Virus record (IMG/VR): IMGVR_UViG_3300021091_000340
Location: 1-27,500 of that record
Source: a virus
Direction: 5' to 3' (one strand)
DNA length: 27,500 bases
Shown here: positions 693 through 17,021 of the stretch, piece after piece
How positions within the stretch are numbered: the stretch's first letter is position 1
Layout: every line of letters begins with the position of its first letter
Notes under the pieces: generated by a model
The model's input: the letters and a program-made list of their open reading frames with translations, nothing else
The model's database searches: none
What the model was told of the DNA's origin: nothing
Position numbers and translations under genes: made by a program

Positions 693-782
693 TCAAGGGG
701 TCGTGGACAGTTGATCAACTGTCACATCATTAGACTCTTCCGCATCATTTCCGTGATGTGCGTAATAAATTGAGTTGTTCAT
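693..782 (-). CDS. Very short ORF behind intergenic element, 29 aa
   Basis: Frame starts at the ATG that ends the 780-811 element and encodes a polar, acidic peptide (MNNSIYYAHHGNDAEE...). Its N-terminus resembles the MNT/MNN start of other genes behind the same element, because those codons come from the element itself. It ends 32 bases before the next start. It could be a real micro-protein or a leader peptide. Confidence 0.4.
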   Translation of the reverse strand: MNNSIYYAHHGNDAEESNDVTVDQLSTTP

Positions 783-811
783 ACTATAGGGACAATCTCA
801 GGGGCCCAGTT
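780..811 (-). promoter_or_regulatory. Intergenic element E1 (type A)
   Basis: Reading on the minus strand: AACTGGGCCCC, then TGAGATTGTCCC, then TATAGT followed directly by ATG. It sits between the stop at 812 and the start at 782. One of 11 related copies in the window; see the first finding for the promoter and RNA readings. Confidence 0.7.
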
Positions 812-967
812 TCAGTTATTGACTGGTGAGATAATATCAGCAACAGTGTGCAATGTGTTCGCAGTGATGTTACGAACTCCAGGTGATAGAATCATTGCAA
901 CGATGAAGATGACAGTAATTGTTCTCACTTTGTCAGGTGACTTGAATGTTAATCTTTTGGATGACAT
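812..967 (-). CDS. Small single-span membrane protein, 51 aa
   Basis: MSSKRLTFKSPDKVRTITV opens a basic N-terminus followed by a hydrophobic segment at about residues 16-30, which fits an N-in single-pass membrane protein. The ATG overlaps the stop of the upstream gene (TGATG), and the stop is followed at once by element E1. A plus-strand frame overlaps this gene but has no support. Function unknown. Confidence 0.6.
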   Translation of the reverse strand: MSSKRLTFKSPDKVRTITVIFIVAMILSPGVRNITANTLHTVADIISPVNN

Positions 968-1197
968 CAATCGAAGCGAGATGAAATATCAGGACCAGGA
1001 TTCTCAAGGTGTGCTACACTATCAGCAACACCTTCAGCACTTAATGCAAACTGAACTTTCTGACCTTCATAGTAAATGTCAAAGACAGATTGAACATAAG
1101 GAGTCAGATTGCCTTGCAAATCCCAGGCATTGCGTGTGTGTGAAGTCTCAACGATTTCGTAGACTTTAGATGTGAGTGGTGAAGTGTAGGTCATCAT
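967..1197 (-). CDS. Hypothetical protein, 76 aa
   Basis: Starts MMTYTSPLTSKVYEIVETS; the first ATG is the one fused to element E2, the second follows directly. The open frame continues upstream through the element (giving GPVKCPSS), but the same extension appears at 4216 and is only the translated repeat, so it was not used. Predicted beta-rich small soluble protein. The stop overlaps the next ATG. Function unknown. Confidence 0.6.
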   Translation of the reverse strand: MMTYTSPLTSKVYEIVETSHTRNAWDLQGNLTPYVQSVFDIYYEGQKVQFALSAEGVADSVAHLENPGPDISSRFD

Positions 1198-1224
1198 ACT
1201 ACTAGGACACTTTACAGGGCCCAC
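1195..1224 (-). promoter_or_regulatory. Intergenic element E2 (type B)
   Basis: Type B copy: AGTGGGCCC, TGTAAAGTGTCC, TAGTAGT, then ATG on the minus strand. Practically identical to E3 (4214-4244) and distinct from type A in the middle block, while the GGGCCC and the ATG-proximal spacing are kept. Confidence 0.65.
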
Positions 1225-1229
1225 TATTG

Positions 1230-1484
1230 TTATGCTTGATCATCATTTGTTACACTTTCAAGCAGATCATTCAATACTTCTTCATCATAATGGTACGACA
1301 ATTCTTCCATCAATTCACTCTCATTATAGTCAATCATATTATCAACAATCCTTTCATAGGCAAATGCACACAAATCGCGCATGTCCATGTTATCAACAAC
1401 TCGCTCTGCATAGAGTTGAGTGAGTTTGTAAAGTTGGTCTTGAGTCAGTGTCATTTTGCTTGTAGGATTAGGAAGGGAAATCAT
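1230..1484 (-). CDS. Hypothetical acidic protein, 84 aa
   Basis: Acidic and helical, with two similar stretches (VDNMDMRDL at about 30 and VDNMIDYNE at about 46) that may be an internal repeat. The start at 1484 lies five bases after the upstream stop; the ATG at 1454 (MTLTQDQLYK) is an alternative, and neither has a strong ribosome binding site. Function unknown. Confidence 0.6.
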   Translation of the reverse strand: MISLPNPTSKMTLTQDQLYKLTQLYAERVVDNMDMRDLCAFAYERIVDNMIDYNESELMEELSYHYDEEVLNDLLESVTNDDQA

Positions 1485-1489
1485 TAGTT

Positions 1490-1669
1490 TTACTGAACTT
1501 TGAGTTGATGAACTTGAACATCAGAATACTGGGAGTCTTTATACTCTTCGTTGTATTCTTGTTTCATCTCTTCTGCGCGACGATTTGCGTCCTCTTCTTT
1601 ATGAAACAAACCATAAAGTTCTTCTGGTTCGTAATCATCAAGACGGGCAAAGATTCCGTAGACAATCAT
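1490..1669 (-). CDS. Hypothetical protein, 59 aa
   Basis: Starts MIVYGIFARLDDYEPEEL; a short strand followed by a highly charged helix rich in Glu, Lys and Arg (about residues 20-45). Its ATG overlaps the stop of the upstream membrane-protein gene (ATGA). Function unknown. Confidence 0.6.
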   Translation of the reverse strand: MIVYGIFARLDDYEPEELYGLFHKEEDANRRAEEMKQEYNEEYKDSQYSDVQVHQLKVQ

Positions 1670-1806
1670 TTTGAGTTGCAGTAGTTAGTGTTTGCTTGGC
1701 AGAACAATTCTGCCTGTTGTTCTTGATACTCATTGGTCGTTGCATGTGCAATCAAACCAACGCGAAGGCCGAGTGCGAGTGTAGCAATCAGAAATGCAAT
1801 TCTCAT
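1666..1806 (-). CDS. Small secreted or membrane-anchored protein, 46 aa; paralog of 3905-4039
   Basis: Basic first residues and a hydrophobic segment MRIAFLIATLALGLRVGL give a signal peptide or membrane anchor, followed by NEYQEQQAE and two Cys near the end (FC...NYC). The product at 3905-4039 is nearly the same over the first 20 residues and keeps both Cys, so the pair is a recent duplication. ATGA overlaps at both ends. Function unknown; the paired Cys could form a disulfide outside the cytoplasm. Confidence 0.65.
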   Translation of the reverse strand: MRIAFLIATLALGLRVGLIAHATTNEYQEQQAELFCQANTNYCNSK

Positions 1807-1937
1807 TTGTTTGATTTTTTGTGTCGATAAGATGCAGATGGGTCTGGATCATAAACACCACCCCCATCTCTATCTTCAAGGTAAAAAAGTGTCAAGAAGG
1901 TGGAGAAAATAACTCCACCAATTACAAGAGTAACCAT
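1803..1937 (-). CDS. Small membrane protein, 44 aa
   Basis: N-terminal hydrophobic segment MVTLVIGGVIFSTFLTLFYL, then an acidic and a basic tail (EDRDGGG ... RHKKSNK), so a single-span protein. The start overlaps the upstream stop (TGATGG) and the stop overlaps the next ATG. Function unknown. Confidence 0.6.
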   Translation of the reverse strand: MVTLVIGGVIFSTFLTLFYLEDRDGGGVYDPDPSASYRHKKSNK

Positions 1938-2185
1938 CAAACTTCAACAAAAGGATTAGCAAGTTGAGGAATCGTATTGAAGTCTACAACTTCATAAGGA
2001 ACATTGAGACTAAGATATTCTTGAATCTCAAGATTCATCTCAATTCGATTGAGAAACTCTTTGGATTGAGTTTCACCCTGAAAGGACAATACTTTCAGAA
2101 ACCACTCATCAGATACATTACCCATAGGGGTTTTGATGGGATAAAAATCCACAACCATCGAACCGTGTTTGGATTGAAGTTTCAT
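1937..2185 (-). CDS. Hypothetical protein, 82 aa; paralog of 383-661
   Basis: MKLQSKHGSMVVDFYPIKTP aligns by eye with residues 12-31 of the protein at 383-661, and the two share LNR, EW and a PQL-NPF ending. The N-terminus is shorter here. The start overlaps the stop of the upstream gene (TGATG). Function unknown; the kept framework suggests both copies are folded proteins. Confidence 0.7.
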   Translation of the reverse strand: MKLQSKHGSMVVDFYPIKTPMGNVSDEWFLKVLSFQGETQSKEFLNRIEMNLEIQEYLSLNVPYEVVDFNTIPQLANPFVEV

Positions 2186-2337
2186 CAGAAATCGTAGTTA
2201 ATGGACTCTTGTGCAATCTCAATAGAATGAAGGATGTGTTCATAATCCTTCTTTTCTTTCTCGTTGAACTCACTTGCTTGCTGTTCCAAGCAATAGAGAA
2301 TCAAATCAAGTGCTTGTTGATTAAGATGCAATTTCAT
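2185..2337 (-). CDS. Hypothetical helical protein, 50 aa
   Basis: Starts MKLHLNQQALDLILYCLEQQ; two predicted helices rich in Gln, Glu and Lys, no recognised motif. Start and stop both overlap neighbours (TGATG), placing it in a tightly coupled set downstream of the ArdA-like gene. Confidence 0.55.
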   Translation of the reverse strand: MKLHLNQQALDLILYCLEQQASEFNEKEKKDYEHILHSIEIAQESINYDF

Positions 2338-2750
2338 CACCACATAGTAAGATTATGTTCTTGTGTGTCGAACACAAATCCATCAACATAGACACAATCC
2401 ATATTGTCGAAAGTTGCTTCCCAATCAACTTCCACAAAACCAGGAAGATCAGTGGTATAACAATCAGTCACATAGTTTTCTGCATAGTCTGCTTTGGAAG
2501 AATACTCACCACGATAAGCATCTTCAAAACCAGCAATGCTATCAATACCAAACTCAGCAACAAAAGCATCTACAGCATCATAAGAATGTGATTCGCCAAA
2601 CTCACAATACTCTTCATAGTAGTTTACAAGATTATCTTCACCTTGTTCTTCGATGAAGTCATAGATGTCTTCTTCACAGTAAGAGTTCTCAACAAGTTCA
2701 GCAATGAAATCTTGAGTTTCAGTCTTGAGTTCCACTTGAGTTGCAGTCAT
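2337..2750 (-). CDS. ArdA-like antirestriction protein, 137 aa
   Basis: Strongly acidic protein rich in Asp and Glu, as expected for a DNA mimic. The C-terminal half carries the pattern typical of ArdA: GFEDAYRGEYSS, then KADYAENYV, a Leu-Pro, VDWEATFDNM and a short VDGFVFD ending. ArdA proteins occupy the DNA groove of type I restriction enzymes and block cleavage and sometimes methylation; usual length is about 160-170 aa, so this one is a little short. I chose the ATG at 2750 (MTATQVELK): an open frame extends to 2855 but runs through hairpin and promoter-like sequence. It is the first gene after that intergenic region, so early expression is plausible. Family call from pattern memory, not a search. 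Confidence 0.65.
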   Translation of the reverse strand: MTATQVELKTETQDFIAELVENSYCEEDIYDFIEEQGEDNLVNYYEEYCEFGESHSYDAVDAFVAEFGIDSIAGFEDAYRGEYSSKADYAENYVTDCYTTDLPGFVEVDWEATFDNMDCVYVDGFVFDTQEHNLTMW

Positions 2751-2777
2751 TTGGTGTTTAACCTTGATTACTTCGTA

Positions 2778-2783
2778 ATTGTA
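2778..2783 (-). promoter_or_regulatory. Possible -10 box before ArdA-like gene
   Basis: TACAAT on the minus strand, preceded by TGC (extended -10 form), about 28 bases before the start at 2750 and just downstream of two hairpins. No good -35 box at 17 bases. Suggestive only. Confidence 0.3.
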
Positions 2784-2785
2784 GC

Positions 2786-2800
2786 ACCCCCAGCGGGGGT
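2786..2800 (-). terminator. GC-rich hairpin
   Basis: Five C, three-base loop, five G, flanked by an A-T pair. It stands alone in AT-rich sequence between genes but lacks a T-run on the minus strand, so it may be a weak or factor-aided terminator, or an mRNA 5' stabiliser. Confidence 0.35.
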
Positions 2801-2813
2801 TTGGGGAGTGTAA

Positions 2814-2837
2814 TGTGCCACAAGGATTAGTGGCACA
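2814..2837 (-). repeat. Dispersed hairpin TGTGCCAC / GTGGCACA, copy 1
   Basis: Perfect 8-bp inverted repeat with an 8-base loop, in the gap upstream of the ArdA-like gene. The same stem with a different loop occurs at 3700-3723, and a related stem at 23438-23466. Each lies in a gap that also holds a promoter-like sequence, so these hairpins probably mark transcription unit borders. Confidence 0.6.
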
Positions 2838-2857
2838 TCTCAACCTTGGTCTCATCC

Positions 2858-3064
2858 TTAGTTAGCAATAAGAACAAGATTAGCAACTCGATTCTCAGGC
2901 ACAAAATCTTGTAACTTATCATAAACTCGTTGGAATTGATTTCCAAGGTTCATATAGTATGCAGCAAGATGTTTATCATCTGCATCATAAAGAACATTTT
3001 CTTTCTCTTCAAGAGCAGAGATAATGTCTAGCAACTCACCAGACGTAAAAGAGATTGAAGTCAT
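2858..3064 (-). CDS. Hypothetical protein, 68 aa
   Basis: MTSISFTSGELLDIISALEE opens a mostly helical, acidic protein without recognised motifs. It is the last gene before a hairpin-bearing gap. Start overlaps the upstream stop (ATGA). Function unknown. Confidence 0.6.
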   Translation of the reverse strand: MTSISFTSGELLDIISALEEKENVLYDADDKHLAAYYMNLGNQFQRVYDKLQDFVPENRVANLVLIAN

Positions 3065-3282
3065 TCTGCAGAAATAGGGAGAGAGTTCTTATCAGGAAAG
3101 ATTGTATATTCTTCTATAACACTAAACAAAGATGAGAACTTGACATAGTTCCAAGTACCCTCATCTTCACCTTCTTGATAGCAATGAATAAGACCTTTTG
3201 AGTCTTGTTTCACATAGCAACCATCATAATCCTCATCATCAAAGACATAACCATCAGAGATAAGTATTTCAGAAAAAGTCAT
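3061..3282 (-). CDS. Hypothetical acidic protein, 73 aa
   Basis: Acidic, probably beta-rich (GYVFDDEDYDGCYVKQDSKG), no recognised motif. ATGA overlaps join it to both neighbours. The Asp/Glu content invites comparison with small DNA mimics, but no family pattern supports that. Confidence 0.6.
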   Translation of the reverse strand: MTFSEILISDGYVFDDEDYDGCYVKQDSKGLIHCYQEGEDEGTWNYVKFSSLFSVIEEYTIFPDKNSLPISAE

Positions 3283-3470
3283 TTGATATCAAAAATGTTG
3301 AAGATCTCGAACTGAGTTTTAGTAAACAAAGTATCTTCGGGGGGATAGTTGTGAACTTCCTTTTGAAGATCTTTGTACACATAAAGCATATCACGCAGTG
3401 CGGTGAGTTGCTTTTCGTTGAGCAATTCTTCAGTCATCAGAACTTTATCCAGTAGTGTTTGAGTAGTCAT
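3279..3470 (-). CDS. Hypothetical protein, 63 aa
   Basis: Helical protein beginning MTTQTLLDKVLMTEELLNEK. The ATG at 3470 is preferred to an in-frame TTG one codon upstream. Four bases separate it from the upstream stop at 3474. Function unknown. Confidence 0.6.
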   Translation of the reverse strand: MTTQTLLDKVLMTEELLNEKQLTALRDMLYVYKDLQKEVHNYPPEDTLFTKTQFEIFNIFDIK

Positions 3471-3473
3471 CAA

Positions 3474-3641
3474 TCAGTAATCAGTTCCGTCATTTTCACA
3501 TTTTTGAATCCAATAAGCATAAACAGGAAAGTTCATTGGATGATCTTGTTTCCTGCTATACCAATCAGAAACAAGTTTCACTCGATTCTCAGGAACCAGT
3601 AGGTAAGGAATGTTATGTGGAATGTGTGGAACGTAAGTCAT
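3474..3641 (-). CDS. Hypothetical protein, 55 aa
   Basis: I chose the ATG at 3641 (MTYVPHIPHNIPYL) because a GAGGA ribosome binding site lies six bases upstream; an ATG at 3659 would add six residues. Rich in Pro, Tyr and Trp, which suggests a compact or peptide-like protein. It is the first gene after the hairpin gap at 3660-3731. Function unknown. Confidence 0.55.
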   Translation of the reverse strand: MTYVPHIPHNIPYLLVPENRVKLVSDWYSRKQDHPMNFPVYAYWIQKCENDGTDY

Positions 3642-4039: not shown

Positions 4040-4045
4040 TACTAA

Positions 4046-4216
4046 TCAGTCAACAACAGAGTAACAAGCAACCCAGGAAGGAATCCCAGAAAGTGATAAT
4101 GAACCATTGCGGGCATCGCAATAGTCTTGTGCCTCATCTTCAGAGTAGAAAGGTCCAATATACTCTGGAGAATCCAGAGCATCGGATACGAAACGGACGG
4201 TGAAGGTTGTGTTCAT
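4046..4216 (-). CDS. Hypothetical protein, 56 aa
   Basis: Starts MNTTFTVRFVSDALDSPEYI at the ATG fused to element E3. Later EDEAQDYCDARNG reads like the small DUF-type domain in which a helix follows PF-(S/T)-EDEA, common in phage proteins that modify displayed input, but no function is known. The upstream extension is only the translated element. Confidence 0.6.
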   Translation of the reverse strand: MNTTFTVRFVSDALDSPEYIGPFYSEDEAQDYCDARNGSLSLSGIPSWVACYSVVD

Positions 4217-4244
4217 ACTACTAGGACACTTTACAGGGCCCACT
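4214..4244 (-). promoter_or_regulatory. Intergenic element E3 (type B)
   Basis: Second type B copy, nearly base for base the same as E2 over about 28 bp, followed by ATGAACAC. It separates the stop at 4247 from the start at 4216. Confidence 0.65.
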
Positions 4245-4246: not shown

Positions 4247-4420
4247 TCAATACCCATTCAGAAAGTCAGCAAGTGCTTCCTGATATTGTTCTTCGGTGTG
4301 ATAGGTTCGAGCACCAATCGTCAGAGGAAAGGTACGCTTCGGAGCAGAAGCTTTAGGCAGGTCACGACCCTTATCGAGAACCTGTTGAGTGTAGGGATTA
4401 GAGTTGTAGTTAGTGTTCAT
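4247..4420 (-). CDS. Hypothetical protein, 57 aa
   Basis: Begins MNTNYNSNPYTQQVLDKGRD; basic in the middle, ending YQEALADFLNGY. There is no other Met in the frame, so the ATG that ends element E4 is the only standard start. This makes it the best case for a start codon supplied by the element. Function unknown. Confidence 0.6.
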   Translation of the reverse strand: MNTNYNSNPYTQQVLDKGRDLPKASAPKRTFPLTIGARTYHTEEQYQEALADFLNGY

Positions 4421-4450
4421 ACTATAGGGACAATCTCAGGGGCCCAGTTT
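4418..4450 (-). promoter_or_regulatory. Intergenic element E4 (type A)
   Basis: Full-length type A copy, same as E1 over its conserved core and continuing into ATGAACAC. No alternative start exists for the gene downstream. Confidence 0.7.
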
Positions 4451-4453: not shown

Positions 4454-4729
4454 TCACCAACGGCCTTGTTGTATCAGGATCTTACGGATTTCCTGATAGA
4501 TAAACTTTTTTAATGCCGCATCATCAGTCTCATCAAATGCCACATAAAGACGATTTAGATACTCATTTTGTGTGGTACATTTGACGACTTTCGCATCAGT
4601 CACACCCAGTTCATTGAGTGTAGAACCTGCTTTCACCTTTGCAACACCAAAGTTTCCAGTGATGTTACCTTTAGTGCGAAACTGTGTTTTAATCTTGGAG
4701 AGATTAGAGTAAGTTATTGGAGTGTTCAT
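4454..4729 (-). CDS. Hypothetical basic protein, 91 aa
   Basis: Starts MNTPITYSNLSKIKTQFRTK at the ATG fused to element E5. The frame stays open upstream to 4927 but that stretch is the element plus the shadow of the metallopeptidase-like gene. Positively charged N-terminal half, then an acidic patch (DETDD) and a basic helical tail. Function unknown. Confidence 0.6.
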   Translation of the reverse strand: MNTPITYSNLSKIKTQFRTKGNITGNFGVAKVKAGSTLNELGVTDAKVVKCTTQNEYLNRLYVAFDETDDAALKKFIYQEIRKILIQQGRW

Positions 4730-4760
4730 ACTATAGGGACAATTCAGAGGGCCCAATTTT
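4727..4760 (-). promoter_or_regulatory. Intergenic element E5 (type A, diverged)
   Basis: Type A copy with changes in the middle block (GGGCCCTCTGAATTGTCCC, one base shorter) while TATAGT-ATGAACAC is intact. The upstream gene has no stop before the element and terminates at the TAG inside CTATAG. Confidence 0.65.
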
Positions 4761-5171
4761 ATCATTGAGGTACAATGTATAAAGTTCTTGTTCTTTACAA
4801 TGTGCTTCAATCTCCCAAGGCATTTGATCATATTCGAGATCACTGCAATCAATACCTTTCCAGCAACGAATGTTCCTTTTATCTTTAAGATCACCCCGAA
4901 CGTGTTGTAGAACGTGTTGTAACTCATGAAGCAAGCAGAGAGTATAATTCTCAGTGTTCATATGTGTTTGTATTTCAATGAGAAAGTGTCGGGGTCTCCA
5001 ATTACAATCTTGCACAGAGCAATAACCATAAACGCCATCACGTTTCAATCCACGATGTATAATATCCACATCAATCTTGTGTCGTGGAAGAAACTGATTT
5101 AGAAACCAGATTGATACATCTTCACACACACGTTTGCTATAACCATAACCAGAATGATAGATTGTGCTCAT
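4731..5171 (-). CDS. HExxH metallopeptidase-like protein, 146 aa
   Basis: Contains HELQH within LLHELQHVLQHVRGD at about residues 77-91, the zinc-binding HExxH signature, followed by an acidic PWEIEAH segment near residue 128 that may supply a third ligand. This layout fits small phage zinc-peptidase-like proteins with the SprT or M78 type of fold, but substrate and activity are unknown. I chose the ATG at 5171; a TTG at 5213 would lengthen it. The last eight residues (IGPSELSL) are translated from element E5, whose TAG is the stop, so the natural C-terminus was probably lost or replaced when the element arrived. Confidence 0.6.
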   Translation of the reverse strand: MSTIYHSGYGYSKRVCEDVSIWFLNQFLPRHKIDVDIIHRGLKRDGVYGYCSVQDCNWRPRHFLIEIQTHMNTENYTLCLLHELQHVLQHVRGDLKDKRNIRCWKGIDCSDLEYDQMPWEIEAHCKEQELYTLYLNDKIGPSELSL

Positions 5172-5266
5172 AGCAAATGCTGTAGAATGACTAATGTAAG
5201 TCTGGTTCCCCAATTCATCAGAATAAAGAACGCTGAAACAAAGATAAGTTTGTCAGTTATTGTCAT
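5168..5266 (-). CDS. Small membrane protein, 32 aa
   Basis: MTITDKLIFVSAFFILMNWG and a second hydrophobic stretch make almost the whole protein apolar. ATGA-type overlaps at both ends place it firmly between its neighbours. Function unknown. Confidence 0.5.
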   Translation of the reverse strand: MTITDKLIFVSAFFILMNWGTRLTLVILQHLL

Positions 5267-5715
5267 CGTCGGTATAAATATCCTCCGCTCCAATCACAGT
5301 TTGCAAGAACATTCTCACGCTCTTTGATAATCAAGAGGTTATACCTTTCTCCTTTTGCTGGTGCTTTCCAAGATGCAGATTTTAGAACTGAACCAGTCCG
5401 CTTATCAATGAAACAATGAACAGAGCGGGAAGAACCACCATCAATCATAATGACTTTGTGGTACTTTTTACCAGTTTCAATCACATAATCAATCGGTAAA
5501 ATACCATTCTTAAGTTCATCAATCTTTTCCTGATGATAGTGTGACTGAACCGAATCAGTGGTGTCGTAGGTAGAATTGAAATTCTCAATCGCCCGTTGAT
5601 GACCACGAATAGCATACTGACGATAGTTGTCTTTCAGTGCTTCAATCAGCAGATGAGTGTACTTAAGCACATTATCTGCGATGGTTTGTTGTGCGTTCAT
5701 TTGAGTAGTGTTCAT
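5263..5715 (-). CDS. Hypothetical protein, 150 aa
   Basis: N-terminal helical part (residues 1-80) and a C-terminal part with a clear pattern: KYHKVIM, then SVHCFIDKRTGSVLKSASWK and APAKGERYNLL, ending with DWSGGYLY. I recall similar C-termini in many cyanophage proteins of unknown function, where the segment reads like a small beta-rich domain. Start at 5715 is fused to element E6; a second ATG at 5700 is possible. Confidence 0.7.
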   Translation of the reverse strand: MNTTQMNAQQTIADNVLKYTHLLIEALKDNYRQYAIRGHQRAIENFNSTYDTTDSVQSHYHQEKIDELKNGILPIDYVIETGKKYHKVIMIDGGSSRSVHCFIDKRTGSVLKSASWKAPAKGERYNLLIIKERENVLANCDWSGGYLYRR

Positions 5716-5744
5716 ACTATAAGGACAATCTCAAGGGCCCAGTT
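5713..5744 (-). promoter_or_regulatory. Intergenic element E6 (type A)
   Basis: Type A with GGGCCCTTGAGATTGTCCTTATAGT, then ATGAACAC; two substitutions from E1. It lies between the stop at 5749 and the start at 5715. Confidence 0.65.
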
Positions 5745-5748: not shown

Positions 5749-6624
5749 TCACCAAGACTTTTGAAGTGTAAAATTATGAAATGAAAAGACTGGGCGATCA
5801 ACCAACTTTATGATCATCTTATCATTTTTCAATACAAATCCCTCACCTACAATCCGCTGACCATTGATGAAAGCAACAGGACTATCTGTTACAATCATTG
5901 ACTGCATCAAATCTTCCTTAATTTCAATCATCGTAAGATAAAGATGTGCCAGTTTCTCACATCCAAAGATCTCAATGAGATTAAACCAAGTGAGTTCTTC
6001 ACCAGACTTGATGATGGCATTGATCTGTTTCTTTGCTTCCACTGCTTCCTTTGCAGACAGAAATCTCACACCAGTTGTATCAAATTGCGGAAGAATTGGA
6101 CGAACCAAATCTACACACGGTTGAACAAACTTTACATCGTCAGTATCAACGAAGAATGGTGCAGTTCCAGACACATAAGCATTTTTCAATTCACCATCAG
6201 TTTTCCAAACAGTGTGTGGTGCAATTACAATCTTTTGGGAGATTATCTGCGAAAACTTATACGCAATGGTATTAGGTTGAAGAGTATCAGTATTCCCAAA
6301 CCCAATAAAATCACACTGAATGATAGATTTTGTGCGAGGCAGATAATCAAAGCAAGCATGAAGAATGTCTGCAACCTTACCTTGAAAGTGCGTATCAATT
6401 TCTTCATGAGAATGACAGAGTTTGATTTTTACTTTATTGAACGCAGATTTGGTAGATACAAACCACTGACCATTTGCAGGATTAGTGCCAAATACTACAG
6501 CTGGACTTCCATCAATCTTCAATGAGACTTCATAGTCATTGTTAAAGAAATCCAGGACAGATAGATCACCAGTGATGATACAATCATCCCAATGTTCTTG
6601 ATGCTTGTTGAGTGGTTTGTTCAT
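5749..6624 (-). CDS. Nucleotidyltransferase of DNA/RNA ligase superfamily, 291 aa
   Basis: Motif I is SLKIDGSPAVVFG near residue 35, in which the Lys of KxDG would carry AMP. Near the C-terminus GEGFVLKND followed by IIKLVDR resembles motifs IV (EGxV) and V (K...K). These are the marks of ATP-dependent ligases and capping enzymes. It lacks a clear OB-fold or other added domain, so it may be a minimal ligase or a diverged nucleotidyltransferase; similar proteins are found in cyanophages without known function. I chose the ATG at 6624 (MNKPLNKHQEHWDD); the frame's earlier ATG lies inside a terminator. It starts a unit, directly after that terminator. Confidence 0.6.
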   Translation of the reverse strand: MNKPLNKHQEHWDDCIITGDLSVLDFFNNDYEVSLKIDGSPAVVFGTNPANGQWFVSTKSAFNKVKIKLCHSHEEIDTHFQGKVADILHACFDYLPRTKSIIQCDFIGFGNTDTLQPNTIAYKFSQIISQKIVIAPHTVWKTDGELKNAYVSGTAPFFVDTDDVKFVQPCVDLVRPILPQFDTTGVRFLSAKEAVEAKKQINAIIKSGEELTWFNLIEIFGCEKLAHLYLTMIEIKEDLMQSMIVTDSPVAFINGQRIVGEGFVLKNDKMIIKLVDRPVFSFHNFTLQKSW

Positions 6625-6640
6625 AAATCTATGATGACAT

Positions 6641-6667
6641 AAAAAAGGGGACACTACAAGTCCCCTT
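6641..6667 (-). terminator. Rho-independent terminator
   Basis: Perfect 8-bp stem (AAGGGGAC / GTCCCCTT) with a 7-base loop followed on the minus strand by a run of six T. It ends the unit containing 6679-6957, just before the nucleotidyltransferase gene. Confidence 0.85.
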
Positions 6668-6678: not shown

Positions 6679-6957
6679 TCAAGCGGCCACACGACGGCGT
6701 GAACGTGTGCGCTTTGATGCAACTTTGACTTCCTCTTTTACGGGAGTTTCAAATACATTCTGGTTTGCATATTCATACGCAACCGATGTAAGTTTATTCA
6801 CATAAAAGAGAGTTTGGTTAATGCTCTTGCGAACTTTATTTGCTCCATCATTCTCTTCGTATGCACGAATGAGAAATCGAGTAACACCTACAATAAATGC
6901 GCTGATAGTAGCAACATTGTAGACGAGAGTATCAACGAACTTCCAGTAATAGGTCAT
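6679..6957 (-). CDS. Membrane protein with basic tail, 92 aa
   Basis: One hydrophobic segment at about residues 10-30 (LVYNVATISAFIVGVTRFLI), a helical middle, and a very basic Arg/Lys tail ending SKRTRSRRRVAA. The tail suggests contact with nucleic acid or acidic lipids on the cytoplasmic side. It is followed within 20 bases by a strong terminator. Function unknown. Confidence 0.65.
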   Translation of the reverse strand: MTYYWKFVDTLVYNVATISAFIVGVTRFLIRAYEENDGANKVRKSINQTLFYVNKLTSVAYEYANQNVFETPVKEEVKVASKRTRSRRRVAA

Positions 6958-6996: not shown

Positions 6997-7024
6997 ATCA
7001 TAGGGACAATCTCAGGGGCCCAGT
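6996..7024 (-). promoter_or_regulatory. Intergenic element E7 (type A, ATG displaced)
   Basis: GGGCCCCTGAGATTGTCCC is the same as in E1, but the hexamer reads TATGAT. The real downstream start (6957) lies about 40 bases away, beyond a hairpin, so this copy does not supply a start codon. Confidence 0.65.
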
Positions 7025-7851: not shown

Positions 7852-9093
7852 TCATCGGTTCACTGTGGGGATGCAGGGTTCACCTTTGGTAAAAATGGTA
7901 TCAACTACTGCTTGAACTTTGCGGGCAGTTGAAATACCAGCAGAAGTGTAAACTGGAATCACGCAGAGAGCAAAAGATTTGGTATATTGACCAAGTGCTC
8001 CAGGTGTAATCTTACCATCAGCAATACCTTTAGCATCATCGTGGTGAAGACGAACAATGCGACCAACAGATTGTGCAATTCCAATATAATCCATAGGACG
8101 CATAAAAATTACTGCATCAAGACCAGAGACCGAAATACCTTCACAAATGATAGAGTGATGGATGACAACAAACTTCTTAGAATTGTCCTTACCCCACTCA
8201 TTTAGAACATCAAAAAACACCTCACGATTGACTTTTTTGCCATCAATAATTGCACCTGTGCGACTCGTAATCACCATCCAAGAGCAACAACGATCCTCCA
8301 GTTCTTTACAGAAGTCAGTCTCAGAAATCAAACCAATGATTTGCTTGGTAGTCTTAGCACAAATGAGAGCTTTGGTCACTCCATAATCATCAATAGTCTC
8401 CATCAGATTTTCTGCATCTCGGTCAAAGATGACCTGACGACCCTTTACCATAGGAAGTTGCTTAACTTCTACTTTAGGAGGAACAATGTAACCTCCACGA
8501 ACCATCTCAGGACCAGAAACATTTGCAATAATTTGTCCGTACACTTCGCCCCAGTTCATACCAGGTTTGCCAACAACATTAGAGTTCTTGGGAGTTGCAG
8601 TATAGGAATAAAATCGTTTTGCAGTCTTGGAGAAATACTCCACAGCAGGGAAGAAATGTTTTTGCACACTATTATGTGCTTCATCCATATGAATCGTATC
8701 AACATCAATCCCTGCCTGCTGAAGGCGAGAAAGAGAATGATAGGTGGTGAAGATAAGTTTGTGAGAATCCTTGTGAGTATTCACCCAGTTACGAATCTCA
8801 TAAGGACGAGTAGAAGATTCCCAGTGAGTTTCTCCACTGTGGCAGTGAAATACCTTTGCATTAGTGATAAACTCAAGGTATTCGTGAGACAACTGCTCTG
8901 CCAGAAGAATCCGAGGACTGACCACAACAACAGTCTTAGGAGTTTCAGATGCAAACTCACGAACAGTATCAGCAACTCCAACAAGAGTCTTACCTGCACC
9001 AGTGACAGCGCAGATAATACCTTTGTCATATTTAACCATCACATCAGTCGCTCGTTCTTGATGAGGACGTAGATTAAGTTTCATTGGTGTCAT
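7852..9093 (-). CDS. SF2 DEAD/DEAH-family helicase, 413 aa
   Basis: Shows the SF2 motifs in order: Walker A AVTGAGKT near residue 34, motif Ia region VVVVSPRILLAEQL, DEAH in IHMDEAHNS near 138, motif III SYTATP near 164, and motif VI QSVGRIVRLH near 340. This is the two-RecA-domain core shared by UvsW-type phage helicases and Res subunits. In T4, UvsW unwinds branched DNA and RNA-DNA hybrids; this one is shorter, with no extra N-terminal domain. It lies downstream of the methyltransferase and nuclease-like genes behind element E8, so either a replication/recombination role or a link to that restriction-like pair is possible. Start at 9093 or 9084. Confidence 0.85.
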   Translation of the reverse strand: MTPMKLNLRPHQERATDVMVKYDKGIICAVTGAGKTLVGVADTVREFASETPKTVVVVSPRILLAEQLSHEYLEFITNAKVFHCHSGETHWESSTRPYEIRNWVNTHKDSHKLIFTTYHSLSRLQQAGIDVDTIHMDEAHNSVQKHFFPAVEYFSKTAKRFYSYTATPKNSNVVGKPGMNWGEVYGQIIANVSGPEMVRGGYIVPPKVEVKQLPMVKGRQVIFDRDAENLMETIDDYGVTKALICAKTTKQIIGLISETDFCKELEDRCCSWMVITSRTGAIIDGKKVNREVFFDVLNEWGKDNSKKFVVIHHSIICEGISVSGLDAVIFMRPMDYIGIAQSVGRIVRLHHDDAKGIADGKITPGALGQYTKSFALCVIPVYTSAGISTARKVQAVVDTIFTKGEPCIPTVNR

Positions 9094-9096: not shown

Positions 9097-9126
9097 CTAG
9101 TATTAGGACAATCTGAGGGGCCCAGT
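9097..9126 (-). promoter_or_regulatory. Intergenic element E8 (type A, diverged)
   Basis: GGGCCCCTCAGATTGTCC is kept, then TAATACTAG instead of the TATAGT block, then ATAATG, the start of the helicase gene. It separates the methyltransferase stop (9127) from the helicase. Confidence 0.6.
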
Positions 9127-10827: not shown

Positions 10828-10983
10828 TCAACCACCAAAGAGTTCATCAAACAAGGCATCACCAGACCTTTCACGTTCAGTCCAGACTTTATTAAATTGT
10901 GCCCGAATGAGTGCTTCTTCAATTTTAGCATCAACGGGCGATTGAGTGCTGTGCCAGTCACCACGGCGGTCTTGCCAGAGCAT
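10828..10983 (-). CDS. Hypothetical protein, 51 aa
   Basis: MLWQDRRGDWHSTQSPVDAK, then a helical segment (IEEALIRAQFNKVWTERE) and an acidic end DELFGG. Its ATG lies about 20 bases beyond element E9, so here the element leaves space for a short 5' leader. Function unknown. Confidence 0.6.
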   Translation of the reverse strand: MLWQDRRGDWHSTQSPVDAKIEEALIRAQFNKVWTERERSGDALFDELFGG

Positions 10984-11003: not shown

Positions 11004-11035
11004 TATACTACAGGGACAATCTCAGGGGCCCAGTA
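11004..11035 (-). promoter_or_regulatory. Intergenic element E9 (type A, ATG lost)
   Basis: Core the same as E1, followed by TGTAGT and TATAAGCAC where other copies have ATGAACAC. The next gene starts about 20 bases downstream. This copy and E10-E11 behave like an ordinary promoter with a leader. Confidence 0.65.
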
Positions 11036-12186: not shown

Positions 12187-12327
12187 TCAAAAGTCAGTGT
12201 TGGAGTTAAGATAAGATTGGAATGTGTTCTCATCAACTTTTTTGTCAATGAAAAACTCACTCACATCATCGTCAATGAAATCAAAGTTTTCAAGTTCTTC
12301 AACTTGAACATCATCAAACCAATCCAT
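12187..12327 (-). CDS. Hypothetical very acidic protein, 46 aa
   Basis: MDWFDDVQVEELENFDFIDD is packed with Asp and Glu and a few Phe. Such acidity could mean a small inhibitor or DNA mimic, but no family pattern is seen. It starts 11 or more bases beyond element E10. Confidence 0.55.
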   Translation of the reverse strand: MDWFDDVQVEELENFDFIDDDVSEFFIDKKVDENTFQSYLNSNTDF

Positions 12328-12337: not shown

Positions 12338-12374
12338 TGCTTACATTATAGGAACAATCTCAAGGGCCCAGTTT
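12338..12374 (-). promoter_or_regulatory. Intergenic element E10 (type A, perfect -10)
   Basis: GGGCCCTTGAGATTGTTCC, then TATAAT and GTAAGCACATTC before the ATG at 12327. The hexamer is a perfect -10 consensus and the next gene starts about 20 bases downstream, which is the best support for the promoter reading. Confidence 0.65.
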
Positions 12375-13332: not shown

Positions 13333-13434
13333 TTATTGCTCTGCAATTTTAGTTTGGAGTTGATTGATGCGTTCTTGATACTGAAACTTAAGTTGACTGA
13401 GCATTTGGTTGGTGTGAGCAACGTGATGAGTCAT
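13333..13434 (-). CDS. Short coiled-coil peptide, 33 aa
   Basis: MTHHVAHTNQMLSQLKFQYQ and ERINQLQTKIAEQ give heptad spacing of hydrophobic residues, so a short coiled coil is likely. It is followed by a CTTTTC/GAAAAG hairpin (13279-13294). Function unknown. Confidence 0.45.
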   Translation of the reverse strand: MTHHVAHTNQMLSQLKFQYQERINQLQTKIAEQ

Positions 13435-13486
13435 CAGGTTTTAACAACTATCTAATAGTAACAGAGAAATAATCAAAAGTCAATAT

Positions 13487-14155
13487 CTAGTGGTCAGTTT
13501 TAGAATTGTCTACTGTAGATTTTTTTCTGGAGATTCTTCCTCTTTTCCACCCGTCACCAGGACACTCAAAATCAATTCTTTCAGTTTTACCATCAGTCCA
13601 TCATTTTTTTCCTTTTAAAAAATTACTTTGGTGTTCACTCTTTTGTTTTTTATAATTTGGATTCTGTTCATAAAATTTTTTCATACTGCCACTAAGATTT
13701 TCTTTGTGTTCCTCAGTAAGTCTTTTATTCTTAAATGACTCGATAATTTTATTTCTTATTTTTGGATTTTGCCAAGATTTTTTAATTGAGTCACTTAGTT
13801 TTTTTCTTTGTTCTGGACTTTTGAATCGAATTTTTTGTGATTTATGTTGATTTTCTTTCCATTCCTCATTACGAATAATGCCACTAGTACCTTCACCTCC
13901 ATTAGTCTTATTTCGAAGAATACCAGTTCCCAAATCTTTTCTACCAAAAACGGAAATCATATACATTTCGTGTTTGAATGCTTCTTCTTCAGTTAGATTT
14001 TGTTTGAGTTTTATTATTCTAGATTTATCTTTTGGTGGTTTTATCTCACTTTTATTTTTTCTGTATAATCTATCACCGACTCCTTTGCCGATATAATAAG
14101 GAGTTTTATCCTCACGCAAATATGCGTAGGTATAAAATCGGTTAGGATTTACCAT
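13487..14155 (-). pseudogene. GIY-YIG homing endonuclease with in-frame TGA near C-terminus
   Basis: Catalytic N-terminal domain: FYTYAYLREDKTPYYIGKG (GIY-YIG strands), basic patch, then TEEEAFKHEMYMISVFG with the catalytic Glu and TNGGEG. A middle DNA-binding part follows with NUMOD3-like helices (SPEQRKKLSDSIKKSW, LTEEHKENLSGSMKKF). The frame stops at 13601 (184 aa), but translation in the same frame continues to 13487 as WTDGKTERIDFECPGDGWKR, matching the C-terminus of the homolog at 26430-27033 where two Trp stand together. The TGA therefore probably replaces a conserved TGG. Start chosen at 14155 (MVNPNRF). Late promoter and inverted-repeat cassette precede it. Confidence 0.75.
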
Positions 14156-14181
14156 AACTGCTCTTTTGTTGGGTGCAGTAT

Positions 14182-14189
14182 TATTTATA
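14182..14189 (-). promoter_or_regulatory. T4-type late promoter TATAAATA before GIY-YIG gene 1
   Basis: Exact late consensus on the minus strand, about 27 bases upstream of the ATG at 14155, inside the inverted-repeat loop. A transcript started here lacks the 5' arm of the inverted repeat. Confidence 0.75.
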
Positions 14190-14190
14190 C

Positions 14191-14214
14191 AAGAAAAGAG
14201 GCATTTCTGCCTCT
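14191..14214 (-). terminator. Terminator in endonuclease cassette 1
   Basis: AGAGGCA, GAAA loop, TGCCTCT, then TTTTCTT on the minus strand. It would block read-through from the upstream operon into the endonuclease gene, leaving the late promoter as the main source of message. Confidence 0.8.
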
Positions 14215-14252
14215 CATCTACCTGTGAAGATTGCACCCAACGCAGGCATCAG

Positions 14253-14260
14253 TATTTATA
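14253..14260 (-). promoter_or_regulatory. Second TATAAATA, upstream of cassette 1
   Basis: Exact late octamer three bases after the stop at 14263. A transcript from here would include the whole inverted repeat and run into the terminator. Confidence 0.6.
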
Positions 14261-14262
14261 AC

Positions 14263-14502
14263 CTATGTTGTAAATGCCTCCACCACTCGGGATTGTTGTT
14301 CTTCAACAAGAGCAAATCGTTGTGCATCAACAACTTTTTGCATAATCAAATTATCATATTTGTCAAGATAATCATCCCGCCATTCCAACAGAATATCGTG
14401 AACTTCATTATCATCTTTACCAACTACTGCAAGAAGTCCGCCATACTCACTGACCGGGAAACCTGGCCAGAAATTCATCAAATAAAGAAATTTTTGTGCC
14501 AT
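14263..14502 (-). CDS. Hypothetical protein, 79 aa
   Basis: Pattern FLYLMNFWPGFPVSEYGGLL, then DDNEVHDILLEWRDDY, and VVEAFTT at the end. I recall related small cyanophage proteins with NFW-PFPSSEYGG. Function unknown; compact alpha/beta fold is likely. Confidence 0.65.
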   Translation of the reverse strand: MAQKFLYLMNFWPGFPVSEYGGLLAVVGKDDNEVHDILLEWRDDYLDKYDNLIMQKVVDAQRFALVEEQQSRVVEAFTT

Positions 14503-14528
14503 TTGTTTGTGTAAATTACTCCTTAAGT

Positions 14529-14627
14529 TTAATGTGAGTGTGATGCATTGTCAACATCAGAGGCAAAGATAAATGCTGCACTGATTGTGAGTAAAGAACC
14601 CAGTCCCATTCCAAGCAAAAAAGTCAT
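14529..14627 (-). CDS. Small membrane protein, 32 aa
   Basis: MTFLLGMGLGSLLTISAAFI then a short polar tail. A single membrane span or signal peptide. A TATAAT about 35 bases upstream could be its promoter. Function unknown. Confidence 0.5.
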   Translation of the reverse strand: MTFLLGMGLGSLLTISAAFIFASDVDNASHSH

Positions 14628-14657
14628 TTCAAAGATAGGTTGGTTGCTTACAAAGTC

Positions 14658-14663
14658 ATTATA
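14658..14663 (-). promoter_or_regulatory. Possible -10 box TATAAT
   Basis: TATAAT just downstream of a terminator-like hairpin and upstream of the start at 14627. The -35 region (TTTCAC at 17 bases) is weak. It is followed by TGTAAGCAACC, nearly the same string found after E11. Confidence 0.4.
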
Positions 14664-14671
14664 CAACGAAA

Positions 14672-14693
14672 CAGAGGGTGGTGAAACCCTCTG
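14672..14693 (-). terminator. Terminator-like hairpin after GIY-YIG gene 2
   Basis: CAGAGGGT / ACCCTCTG perfect 8-bp stem with 6-base loop, followed by TTTCG on the minus strand; the T-run is short. It lies directly beyond the stop at 14702. Confidence 0.6.
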
Positions 14694-14701
14694 TGTGCCA
14701 G

Positions 14702-15274
14702 TTATTCAAGTGTCTGTTCTTTTCTTCTCTGGTAATAGAGTTTATTATACTCTCTCAATCTTTCTTTATTATCTTTTGTGTATTGTTTTATCTTATCTTT
14801 GTTTCTTTTTCTCCACTCTGCAAGATATTGTAACTTTTCTTCTTTATTATTTTCATAGCGTTCTTTCAATTTTTTCTTATTATTTTGATAATAGTTTTTA
14901 CTCTTTGTTTTAATTTTATCAATATTATTTTCTTTATAAAACTTATAATAATCGCTTTGAGTTTCGAATATTAAATCATATTTTTTGCGTCCACTTCCAC
15001 CTAAAGTCATATTATACCCATTTTTATAGGTATCAAAAAAATTAATAAAATATATTTCTTTTTCATCCAATAATTGAACATCATATTCGTCTACTATACC
15101 ATAAACAAAATTATTCCATCCATACTTTCTAACTGCATTATAAAATTTGCAATACATTTTTTTGCTATCAATTAAATGTCTTTGCTTTCTAACTTCCTCT
15201 TGTACTGTTTGTCCAATGTATTTCTCTCCTGTAGGAATACAATGGTAACAGTATATAATGCCCTTTGCTGACAT
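14702..15274 (-). CDS. GIY-YIG homing endonuclease 2, 190 aa
   Basis: Catalytic domain at residues 1-95: GIIYCYHCIPTGEKYIGQT, then KQRHLIDSKK with the catalytic-region Arg, and DEKEIYFINFFDTYKNGYN with the metal-binding Glu, then TLGGSG. This is the I-TevI/Seg type of domain. The C-terminal half is Lys/Tyr/Asn-rich and helical, with repeats of NNKKK-KERYENN, and would bind DNA. Unlike the other two endonucleases it lacks NUMOD3 repeats, so it is a different subfamily. The same kind of cassette lies upstream (15287-15360). The gene is probably mobile. Confidence 0.85.
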   Translation of the reverse strand: MSAKGIIYCYHCIPTGEKYIGQTVQEEVRKQRHLIDSKKMYCKFYNAVRKYGWNNFVYGIVDEYDVQLLDEKEIYFINFFDTYKNGYNMTLGGSGRKKYDLIFETQSDYYKFYKENNIDKIKTKSKNYYQNNKKKLKERYENNKEEKLQYLAEWRKRNKDKIKQYTKDNKERLREYNKLYYQRRKEQTLE

Positions 15275-15301
15275 AACTGCTTCTTAAATTAGGTGACTTA
15301 A

Positions 15302-15309
15302 TATTTATA
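15302..15309 (-). promoter_or_regulatory. T4-type late promoter TATAAATA before GIY-YIG gene 2
   Basis: Exact late octamer, 27 bases upstream of the ATG at 15274, the same distance as at endonuclease 1. It is preceded on the minus strand by the terminator T-run, CTTTTCTTG. Confidence 0.75.
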
Positions 15310-15310
15310 C

Positions 15311-15335
15311 AAGAAAAGGAGCATTTCTGCTCCTT
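15311..15335 (-). terminator. Terminator in endonuclease cassette 2
   Basis: AAGGAGCA, GAAA loop, TGCTCCTT, then TTCTTG on the minus strand. Compensating changes relative to cassette 1 (two pairs differ but both stems are perfect) show the stem is selected. Confidence 0.8.
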
Positions 15336-15370
15336 ATCTACTCTATAGTGTCACCTAATTAGAGCACCAC

Positions 15371-15378
15371 TATTTAGA
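15371..15378 (-). promoter_or_regulatory. Late-like octamer TCTAAATA
   Basis: TCTAAATA right after the stop at 15379, upstream of cassette 2. The CTAAATA form recurs at 11661, 15951 and 27059. Confidence 0.3.
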
Positions 15379-15516
15379 CTAATAAAACTCTTCCAAGATG
15401 TAGTCCACAGTTACTTGATACAACGTTGCCATTTCATTAACCTCCTGCCAGAACTCTTCTGCCTTTTTACTCATTTCTGCTTGTTGAATGAGTTGTTTGA
15501 TACGATCAGAAATCAT
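15379..15516 (-). CDS. Hypothetical protein, 45 aa
   Basis: MISDRIKQLIQQAEMSKKAE then EEFWQEVNEMATLYQVTVDY: a single long amphipathic helix with an acidic end. Overlaps the upstream gene's end by 11 bases. Function unknown. Confidence 0.55.
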   Translation of the reverse strand: MISDRIKQLIQQAEMSKKAEEFWQEVNEMATLYQVTVDYILEEFY

Positions 15517-15634
15517 TTGAGTCCTCCAGAAATTGTGCTTCGTCTTTGGGACGAATGACTTTGAAATAATAAACTAAAGATAGTAGGGCAAATACTACTA
15601 GAAGTAAGTATCCACCCACATAGAGAGCAATCAT
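15506..15634 (-). CDS. Small membrane protein, 42 aa
   Basis: One hydrophobic span (MIALYVGGYLLLVVFALLSL) followed by a polar tail with basic then acidic residues (VIRPKDEAQFLED). Start and stop overlap neighbours. Function unknown. Confidence 0.6.
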   Translation of the reverse strand: MIALYVGGYLLLVVFALLSLVYYFKVIRPKDEAQFLEDSNDF

Positions 15635-15759
15635 TTTTGTTGTGCGATTGGTTGACTGTATTGCTCAAAGAGTTTAGCATCTCTTTGAGTCAAAAACAAG
15701 TTCCATCCAAAAATGACAAGAAGAGCAGTTAGTGTTGCAGCAAGGTACTTGGCGTTCAT
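15631..15759 (-). CDS. Small membrane protein, 42 aa
   Basis: MNAKYLAATLTALLVIFGWN with a polar tail (LTQRDAKLFEQYSQ). The open frame extends to 15939, but the upstream part is the shadow of 15800-15943. A 15-codon frame (MTEGGMPVPTLQMNK, 15756-15803) ends in an overlap with this ATG and carries GAAGGAGG, so it may be a coupling leader. Confidence 0.6.
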   Translation of the reverse strand: MNAKYLAATLTALLVIFGWNLFLTQRDAKLFEQYSQPIAQQK

Positions 15760-15799
15760 TTGTTCATTTGAAGAGTAGGGACGGGCATACCTCCTTCGG

Positions 15800-15943
15800 T
15801 CATTTGAGTGCATTTTGCCCAATTCTATGTTGAATTGCTCTTGCTGCCATACGAAAGTTTCCAAAGTCCATAGTTTTATCTTCCTCACAGAAGTCCTCAA
15901 AAATCTTTTTGATTTGTTCGTCAGTGATTTGTGCGTCATTCAG
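15800..15943 (-). CDS. Hypothetical protein without an ATG start, 47 codons
   Basis: Frame reads LNDAQITDEQIKKIFEDFCE, then FGNFRMAARAIQHRIGQ, and has protein-like character: a small helical domain reminiscent of conserved cyanophage proteins with TDEQI-K-F. The only codon near the expected start is CTG at 15943; a stop lies three codons before it. The ATG at 15871 (MDFGNFRMAAR) is downstream and would leave 23 residues. Either a rare start is used or the start was lost. Confidence 0.4.
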   Translation of the reverse strand: MNDAQITDEQIKKIFEDFCEEDKTMDFGNFRMAARAIQHRIGQNALK

Positions 15944-15950
15944 GTGTGAT

Positions 15951-15958
15951 TATTTAGT
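15951..15958 (-). promoter_or_regulatory. Late-like octamer ACTAAATA
   Basis: ACTAAATA overlaps the stop codon of 15954-16373 and is only about 8 bases before the presumed start at 15943. If used, the message would be leaderless or start inside the gene. Confidence 0.25.
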
Positions 15959-16373
15959 TTTGCTTTAGACGCTGACTTTCAGTGATGGGAATTGGAATAC
16001 CTTTTTCTGTTGGAACATAGATCACGGTCTTCTCTTTACTATTATCTGCATTTTCAAGGTTTTGGATATAAAGGTAGGTAAGATATTCAGAATTACCTTT
16101 CAAACTTTCCCCAAGAATCTTATTAGCAGCAGACGCACCTTTTGCCCTTTCAACTTCTGCTTCTGCCTGTAGGACAGAAGCATCTTTAAGTGCCTTTGCT
16201 TCAAGAACTTTTACTTGCCTCGTGAATTCCGCCTTCTGTAGTTCTGCTTTACCTTGCAATGATTGTGCCCACACATTATAAAGCGGACCAACTACTGCAT
16301 CGATAATAAACAGCGAAAGAATAAAAGAAACACCAATGATAATGGCATTTCGCATAGTGTTATCTTGTGTCAT
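15954..16373 (-). CDS. SPFH/prohibitin-like membrane protein, 139 aa
   Basis: Membrane span at about residues 9-30 (AIIIGVSFILSLFIIDAVVG), a charged coiled-coil (residues 38-80, rich in Ala/Glu/Lys: AEVERAKGASAANKI), then LGESLKGNSEYLTYLYIQN and a KTVIYVPTEKGIPI segment. This order matches the C-terminal coiled coil and tail of prohibitin and HflC-type proteins, but the globular band-7 domain is missing (family members are about 250-300 aa). It would sit in the host membrane and oligomerise. Start overlaps the upstream stop (ATGA). Likely partner of the small membrane protein upstream. Confidence 0.6.
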   Translation of the reverse strand: MTQDNTMRNAIIIGVSFILSLFIIDAVVGPLYNVWAQSLQGKAELQKAEFTRQVKVLEAKALKDASVLQAEAEVERAKGASAANKILGESLKGNSEYLTYLYIQNLENADNSKEKTVIYVPTEKGIPIPITESQRLKQN

Positions 16374-16561
16374 TTAGAAGAACCTCCAGTGGGTTTGAAT
16401 ATTGCATTAGCAAGAAATACAATAAGTAGATTTTGCCAGAATGTCAATGACACATTAAACCAAGATAGAATGATGCCAAGAACCCACGCTTCAAGAAGAA
16501 GACCCGCAGTAGCAAGAACAATGAAGCCAAAAACAACGCCAAGAGCAGTAGAAGTTTTCAT
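16370..16561 (-). CDS. Two-span membrane protein, 63 aa
   Basis: Spans at about residues 5-30 (ALGVVFGFIVLATAGLLLEA...) and 38-56 (LTFWQNLLIVFLANAIF), short loop, polar tail PTGGSSK. Organised with the SPFH-like gene through an ATGA overlap, so they may form a membrane complex. Function unknown. Confidence 0.6.
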   Translation of the reverse strand: MKTSTALGVVFGFIVLATAGLLLEAWVLGIILSWFNVSLTFWQNLLIVFLANAIFKPTGGSSK

Positions 16562-16564
16562 ATG

Positions 16565-16975
16565 TCAAACAGCAAGTGCTCCAGAGGGGATTTCAACACC
16601 TTCCAAGTAGGAATCGTGCCAGTCACAGGTATCATAGCACAACCATTCCCCTTGTTGAGTATAAACATATCCAAACTCTTCTGCACCTTGAGTCAGATAG
16701 TCACCAAGATTTTTATCAAGACGAGGTGGCATGTCTTCACCACGAGCAGAATAGTAGAGAGGACCAGTAGTAGGCAGAGTTTCATTCTTCCAACCTGCAT
16801 TAGTCCAACAAGAGGACATATCACCACCATCAATCAATTTTACAACTTTCTCTTTGGTGTTGTAATGAGTGCGAAGAATACGACCCAACCATTCAGGATA
16901 ACCATCCCAATGGTGATATACAGAAAGAATGGATTCATCAGCAAGTTGAATACCAATGCGGGAACGAGTTGCCAT
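16565..16975 (-). CDS. Conserved-looking phage protein, 136 aa
   Basis: MATRSRIGIQLADESILSVY, then HHWDGYPEWLGRIL and VVKLIDGGDMSSCW. I recognise this N-terminal pattern (R-S-IGI, YCHWDGYP, GDLSSL) from many phage hypothetical proteins, which also carry later acidic GE-MPP-like segments. It is a probable alpha/beta fold of about 130 aa. No enzyme function is known to me. The ATG at 16975 lies 20 bases beyond element E11. Confidence 0.65.
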   Translation of the reverse strand: MATRSRIGIQLADESILSVYHHWDGYPEWLGRILRTHYNTKEKVVKLIDGGDMSSCWTNAGWKNETLPTTGPLYYSARGEDMPPRLDKNLGDYLTQGAEEFGYVYTQQGEWLCYDTCDWHDSYLEGVEIPSGALAV

Positions 16976-16988
16976 TTCAAGTTTGTTG

Positions 16989-17021
16989 CTTACACTATAG
17001 GGACAATCTCAGGGGCCCAGT
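16989..17021 (-). promoter_or_regulatory. Intergenic element E11 (type A)
   Basis: Core the same as E1 (GGGCCCCTGAGATTGTCCC, TATAGT), followed by GTAAGCAACAAAC and the ATG at 16975. It is the rightmost copy, more than 4.6 kb from its nearest neighbour. Confidence 0.7.

Follow-up and report, generated by a model that had tools for sequence, protein, structure and literature searches.

A repeated element pairing a constant chassis with a genome-specific box, a probable early-gene promoter of T4-like cyanophages

The middle promoters of phage T4 combine a sigma70-type -10 hexamer with a phage-specific site of about 10 bp, the MotA box (TTTGCTTA), which is centred at -30 and takes the place of the -35: it occupies -35 to -26, with 13 bp between it and the -10 (PMC2988021). 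How T4-like cyanophages without MotA and AsiA take over the host polymerase has been described as unclear (PMC2984593). Here we describe a 28-base element present in 11 copies, all on the minus strand, in a 27.5-kb viral record (IMG/VR record IMGVR_UViG_3300021091_000340, positions 1 to 27,500, the whole of which is called the window below), whose genes are mainly on that strand and whose proteins place it among the T4-like cyanophages. The element resembles T4 middle promoters in its -10-like hexamer (TATAGT) and in the distance of 13 bp that separates this from an upstream box, and we consider it probable that it is an early-gene promoter of these cyanophages, used by the host RNA polymerase with a phage-specific box in place of the -35. 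It is unlike T4 middle promoters in having, instead of the MotA box, 34 other boxes (ACTGGGCCC in the window), in its conserved spacer, in its location in an early-gene region, and in that no genes for MotA and AsiA were found in the carriers searched.

With the G of GTCC taken as position 0, the element comprises the box (-17 to -9), a core (-5 to 3), the hexamer TATAGT (5 to 10) and a following ATG or GTA triplet (11 to 13). A 19-nt pattern with up to three mismatches allowed matched exactly the 11 copies in the window, against 0.12 matches expected, while GGGCCC occurs 11 times (0.69 expected), every time inside a copy. The original prediction had listed 11 copies in the same orientation, and all of them were located on the minus strand at the positions it gave; it had put GGGCCC about 18 bases before the hexamer, whereas the measured gap is 13 bp (19 bp from start to start).

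A recurrence of the element between the genes of related phages, which had been proposed as a check, was found in many of them. When viral contigs were scanned for exact matches to GGGCCCNTGAGATTGTCC, 16 stretches emerged, several with at least 10 copies between early genes; scanning for only the shared part yielded at least 120 stretches. A matrix built from the listed shared-part stretches detected 652 sites, compared with 7 in the reversed control sequence; deduplication left 539 distinct copies, from viral contigs and from the isolates S-SM2 and SynMITS9220M01. The family counts are not counts of independent events, as related phages are represented by many fragmentary contigs. Copies are on a single strand in 99 of the 103 contigs with at least three copies. 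S-SM2 (GGGGGGTCG-CCTAAAGCGTCCC-TATAGT) and SynMITS9220M01 (TTACTCACC-TCTAAAGTGTCCC-TATAGT) each have 12 homologous copies in the region between the tail-fibre genes and gp25/gp6/gp7, with a spacing identical to that of the window and with different boxes. In the complete genomes of these two isolates the copies are confined to one strand and to a single stretch of 11-14 kb (38.9-50 kb or 42.7-56.3 kb).

Comparison of these copies resolves the element into two modules. The first, common to all copies, is a chassis reading AAAGTGTCC-C-TATAGT-RTRA-RCAC; the second is the 9-bp box upstream of it, which invariably lies 13 bp before TATAGT. Core and hexamer are nearly as alike between contigs as within them (identity of the core is 92% within contigs and 88% between contigs), whereas identity of the box falls from 94% within to 49% between contigs. 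By position, the genome-specific part spans -17 to -9, within which G-14 and C-10 alone are shared by most copies, and 34 different boxes are found among 101 contigs, GGGCCC being the version of the window's lineage. The window gives the same picture: its type A and type B cores differ, and the GGGCCC box is the same in both. RB11-B carries the TTACTCACC box; its box and hexamer are still 13 bp apart even though GTCC is displaced by one base. A box that is repeated ten times and changes in concert between lineages points to a sequence-specific binding protein that co-evolves with it.

That the element is a promoter is suggested by sister lineages, in which repeats of the same early-gene region contain TATTCT (Syn9), TATACT (ACG-2014f, 23 copies), TATAAT (S-SRM01, S-SKS1) or TATTAT (DSL-LC02). 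Such TATAAT-like hexamers argue for an early promoter of the host polymerase with a phage-specific site for the -35. If TATAGT is taken as the -10, the predicted start falls at position 17 (the seventh base past the hexamer), which is A in 78-92% of copies, whether coding or non-coding, and the box falls at -34 to -26. These hexamers and the fixed 13-bp spacing agree with the original prediction of a phage promoter with its own -35-type element and the geometry of T4 middle promoters. The distance from the hexamer to the start codon is variable, as for a promoter, ranging from 0 to more than 100 nt; genes without an overlapping ATG mostly start 15-24 nt past the hexamer, some more than 100 nt past it. 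A Shine-Dalgarno sequence precedes 6 of 248 element genes without an overlapping ATG, compared with 10 of 39 and 19 of 41 other genes in the two isolates.

The way in which such a promoter might work can be outlined as follows. TATAGT would serve as the -10 for the host RNA polymerase, and the 9-bp box would stand in place of the -35, where it would be read by a phage-specific DNA-binding factor whose specificity differs between lineages; this specificity would hold all copies of one genome to the same box. The spacer AAAGTGTCC may be read by something common to these phages, perhaps the polymerase or a shared half-site. Transcription would most likely start at the conserved A seven bases past TATAGT, giving short leaders without a Shine-Dalgarno sequence, and ATGs overlapping the promoter would be used on transcripts reading through from upstream. 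We infer transcription initiation, the recogniser, the start site and the early timing from the sequence comparisons, the timing from gene content and position; the region of the copies is one that, from Syn9, we take to be early rather than middle in related phages. That the factor is an activator is likewise a supposition, and a repressor might just as well be what binds the box as its operator.

The factor would not be MotA. Profiles for MotA and AsiA (PF09114, PF09158, PF09010) found nothing in S-SM2, SynMITS9220M01 and five contigs, with T4 positive as a control, so that a literal dependence on MotA and AsiA, as in the promoters cited by the original prediction, has to be given up; given its geometry, the element seems to work like a MotA promoter without being one. 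A promoter for a T7-type polymerase was suggested by CCCTATAG, since TCCCTATAG has the look of T7-family promoters (..CACTATAG+1), with a start near G. This candidate was ruled out: PF00940 (single-subunit RNA polymerase) was absent from eight carriers, including two complete genomes, and present in the P-SSP7 control, and the specificity box of the element lies too far upstream.

Some observations weigh against the promoter as outlined. A search for a candidate recogniser gave no clear one: the proteins shared by S-SM2 and SynMITS9220M01 and absent from Syn9, ACG-2014f, Bellamy and Syn1 are a few hypotheticals, none clearly DNA-binding. Some genes, moreover, truly start at the ATG directly after TATAGT and have no other start codon; transcripts beginning seven bases past the hexamer would lose it. 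The T4-GC71 gene (MKNTHLEHPEDSILTGD) starts exactly at this ATG in many lineages, with a conserved N-terminus. The next gene has an element of its own in 54% of cases for ATG-only genes and in 18-24% for the others, which suggests that the element serves the very gene that it precedes. As a separate observation, the gene that comes directly after the cluster's first element (42787-43263 in S-SM2, annotated PF06114, ImmA/IrrE-type peptidase; 36424-36831 in SynMITS9220M01) is missing or weak in non-carriers.

Among the 539 relatives, the triplet after the hexamer is ATG in 214, GTA in 182, ATA in 74 and GTG in 22, ATG being one state of an R-T-R-A consensus. Because it opens a frame of at least 30 codons in 198 of the 214 copies (GTG at the same spot opens a gene in 8 of 22, which is background), this ATG appears to be selected as a start codon, and no nearby in-frame alternative exists in 70 of the cases. 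With a start codon upstream of the expected transcription start, either transcripts begin seven bases past TATAGT and the ATG is translated on read-through mRNA, or the mRNA is leaderless. In the latter case, the element would be a promoter for leaderless or nearly leaderless mRNAs, with transcription starting at or just before the purine after TATAGT and the ATG at the 5' end; in a variant of this explanation, the start would be at A6 or A8 from an upstream -10, TAAAGT. TATAGT would then not be an ordinary -10. The purine is indeed found in nearly all copies, a Shine-Dalgarno sequence is absent from all 214 ATG copies, and start codons are nearly absent 3-14 nt past the hexamer; in addition, the ATG that comes next keeps the frame in 130 of 163 cases, while frames are evenly used (117/93/92) where the ATG is absent. 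The T4-GC71 gene also starts at the expected +1, exactly 6 nt past a -10-like hexamer, in P-SSM2 (TATAAT; L222:5992-6006), S-SSM7 (TATAAT; L224:4993-5007), Bellamy (TATCTT; L024:25254-25268) and S-CREM1 (CATACT; L223 near 5000), which predicts a leaderless mRNA in these four lineages and makes this arrangement look ancestral for the gene. However, a sigma70 polymerase cannot start one base past the -10 hexamer, a T7-type polymerase was not found in carriers, the A seven bases past the hexamer is conserved in non-coding copies as well, and the upstream -10 candidate reads GAGATT in the window's lineage. We regard leaderless transcription from the element as rather doubtful, and, on account of the homology of the hexamer and the conserved A17, lean towards read-through translation over a 5' end at or before position 11. 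At 6620-6665 (minus strand) of the window, the T4-GC71 homologue (phrog_455) has no element; it is preceded by CATCAT exactly 6 nt before its ATG and by a terminator-like hairpin, GGGGACTTGTAGTGTCCCC-T6.

A 'novel regulatory element' was reportedly described by Doron et al. in 2016 for the early genes of Syn9. Early promoters of the Syn9/ACG-2014f type share with the present element the gene region and the position of the -10, and a half-site of their palindrome GACAGTT..AACTGTC, AA[GC]TGTCC, resembles its core. Their palindrome, however, precedes the start by about 52 bp, and the chassis AAAGTGTCCCTATAGT was not found in Syn9 (no match with up to one mismatch), ACG-2014f, Bellamy or Syn1, so that the element is at least of a different class from that of Syn9. 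Conversely, the Syn9-type palindromic operator is absent from the 11 copies and present at two other promoters of the window, both on the minus strand. The first (659-723) is of canonical form, TTGACT-N17-TATCAT, ends exactly 6 nt before an ATG (661), and has the palindrome GGACAGTTGATCAACTGTCC, whose centre lies about 53 bp upstream of the predicted start, so that a Syn9-type operator and a leaderless early mRNA are predicted; the second (13433-13510) reads TTGACT-N17-TACTAT and has a degenerate operator, GACAATTCTAAAACTGACCAC. The 23 promoters of ACG-2014f (L028:382-14600) read CTATACT(A/T)..CATACC, with TGTGACAGTTGAGGAAGTGGCACA about 30 nt upstream.

The box might instead be the operator of a phage repressor that silences early genes, with the core alone acting as the promoter. 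Like the stoperators of Cluster A mycobacteriophages, it is an asymmetric site that lies near genes in a single orientation and is uniform within a genome but varies from one genome to another; besides, early genes are active before a newly made activator could exist. Stoperators, however, are repressor or terminator sites spread across temperate genomes, whereas the box is part of promoters of a single region, at a fixed 13 bp from the -10 and with no other -35, which suggests a positive role, and to our knowledge no repressor is known in these lytic phages. We thus consider a repressor operator unlikely. Less probable still is an element acting in the translated region or at the RNA level (a translational operator or processing site in a polycistronic mRNA), as could be imagined because the element often adjoins a start codon and its genes lack a Shine-Dalgarno sequence: the distance to the start codon varies widely, and the TATAAT-type hexamers of sister lineages speak against it. 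An Rfam search with the element gave no match, no consensus fold was found for it, and single-copy RNA folds were mostly no more stable than shuffled ones. An RNA stem GGGAC/GTCCC drawn from the overall consensus was discarded, as no pair changed on both sides and pairing equalled that of shuffles; the earlier view that sequence rather than RNA shape is conserved is thereby upheld.

The copies of the window, numbered along it and all on the minus strand, include six directly followed by ATG. Copy 1 (783..810, type A; box ACTGGGCCC, core GAGATTGTCC, TATAGT at 783-788) has its ATG at 780-782, which opens a 29-codon frame only. Copy 2 (1198..1225, type B; box AGTGGGCCC, core TAAAGTGTCC, hexamer AGTAGT) is followed by an ATG (1195-1197) in frame with gene 967-1197, and copy 3 (4217..4244, type B) by the start codon (4214-4216) of gene 4046-4216, whose N-terminus, MNTTFTVRF..., is kept in relatives. 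The ATG after copy 4 (4421..4448, type A), at 4418-4420, is the sole start of gene 4247-4420 (phrog_649), as the original prediction had stated. Copy 5 (4730..4757) precedes the start (4727-4729) of gene 4454-4729 and shares sequence with the end of ORF 4731-5213, the TAG stop of which is contained in TATAGT. Copy 6 (5716..5743, TTATAGT) is followed by the ATG (5713-5715) of gene 5263-5715 (phrog_818, T4-GC68), which has another in-frame ATG 15 nt further on. In the remaining copies the hexamer is separated from the start codon: by about 40 nt for copy 7 (6997..7024, TATGAT; gene 6679-6957), about 6 nt for copy 8 (9099..9126, AATACT; gene 7852-9093, a UvsW-type helicase), about 23 nt for copy 9 (11007..11034, TGTAGT ATAAGCAC; gene 10828-10983), about 18 nt for copy 10 (12345..12372, TATAAT GTAAGCAC; gene 12187-12327) and about 19 nt for copy 11 (16994..17021, TATAGT GTAAGCAA; gene 16565-16975, T4-GC66 family). 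The hexamers listed earlier were therefore correct, with AGTAGT (the two type B copies) and AATACT omitted; the ATG after the hexamer truly starts some genes, although after copy 1 it opens no more than the 29-codon frame; and a location between a stop and the next start does not strictly hold for copy 5. Directly upstream of copy 11, a Mom-family DNA modification protein (PF25680) is encoded at 17022-17621 on the minus strand.

The papers searched yielded no description of a genome-specific box set in a constant chassis, nor was an open paper found that quotes the element as a cyanophage promoter. The element would mark 11 promoters in the window and, mostly in uncultured phages, several hundred more. 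One part of it changes as a whole from lineage to lineage, which makes the question testable, as the factor must covary with the box. A broader picture, which we offer tentatively and hold to be possible at best, is that of a fast-evolving promoter password in lytic cyanophages, with a conserved chassis, a swappable 9-bp box and a phage factor that is delivered with infection or made immediately afterwards, in dozens of mutually exclusive specificities and with some mRNAs starting at the AUG itself. If this were true, divergence of the factor would prevent phages infecting the same cell from exploiting one another's transcription machinery. The box also offers an easy means of connecting contigs that belong to the same phage lineage.

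A lone GGGCCCTTGAGATTGTCC in a 202-kb contig (L011:143-160), without a hexamer or further copies, is probably due to chance. The window also contains a repeat (13890-14134 and 26780-27024), 81% identical, inside two genes and 80% identical to a gene of S-SRM01, which is perhaps a mobile endonuclease gene.

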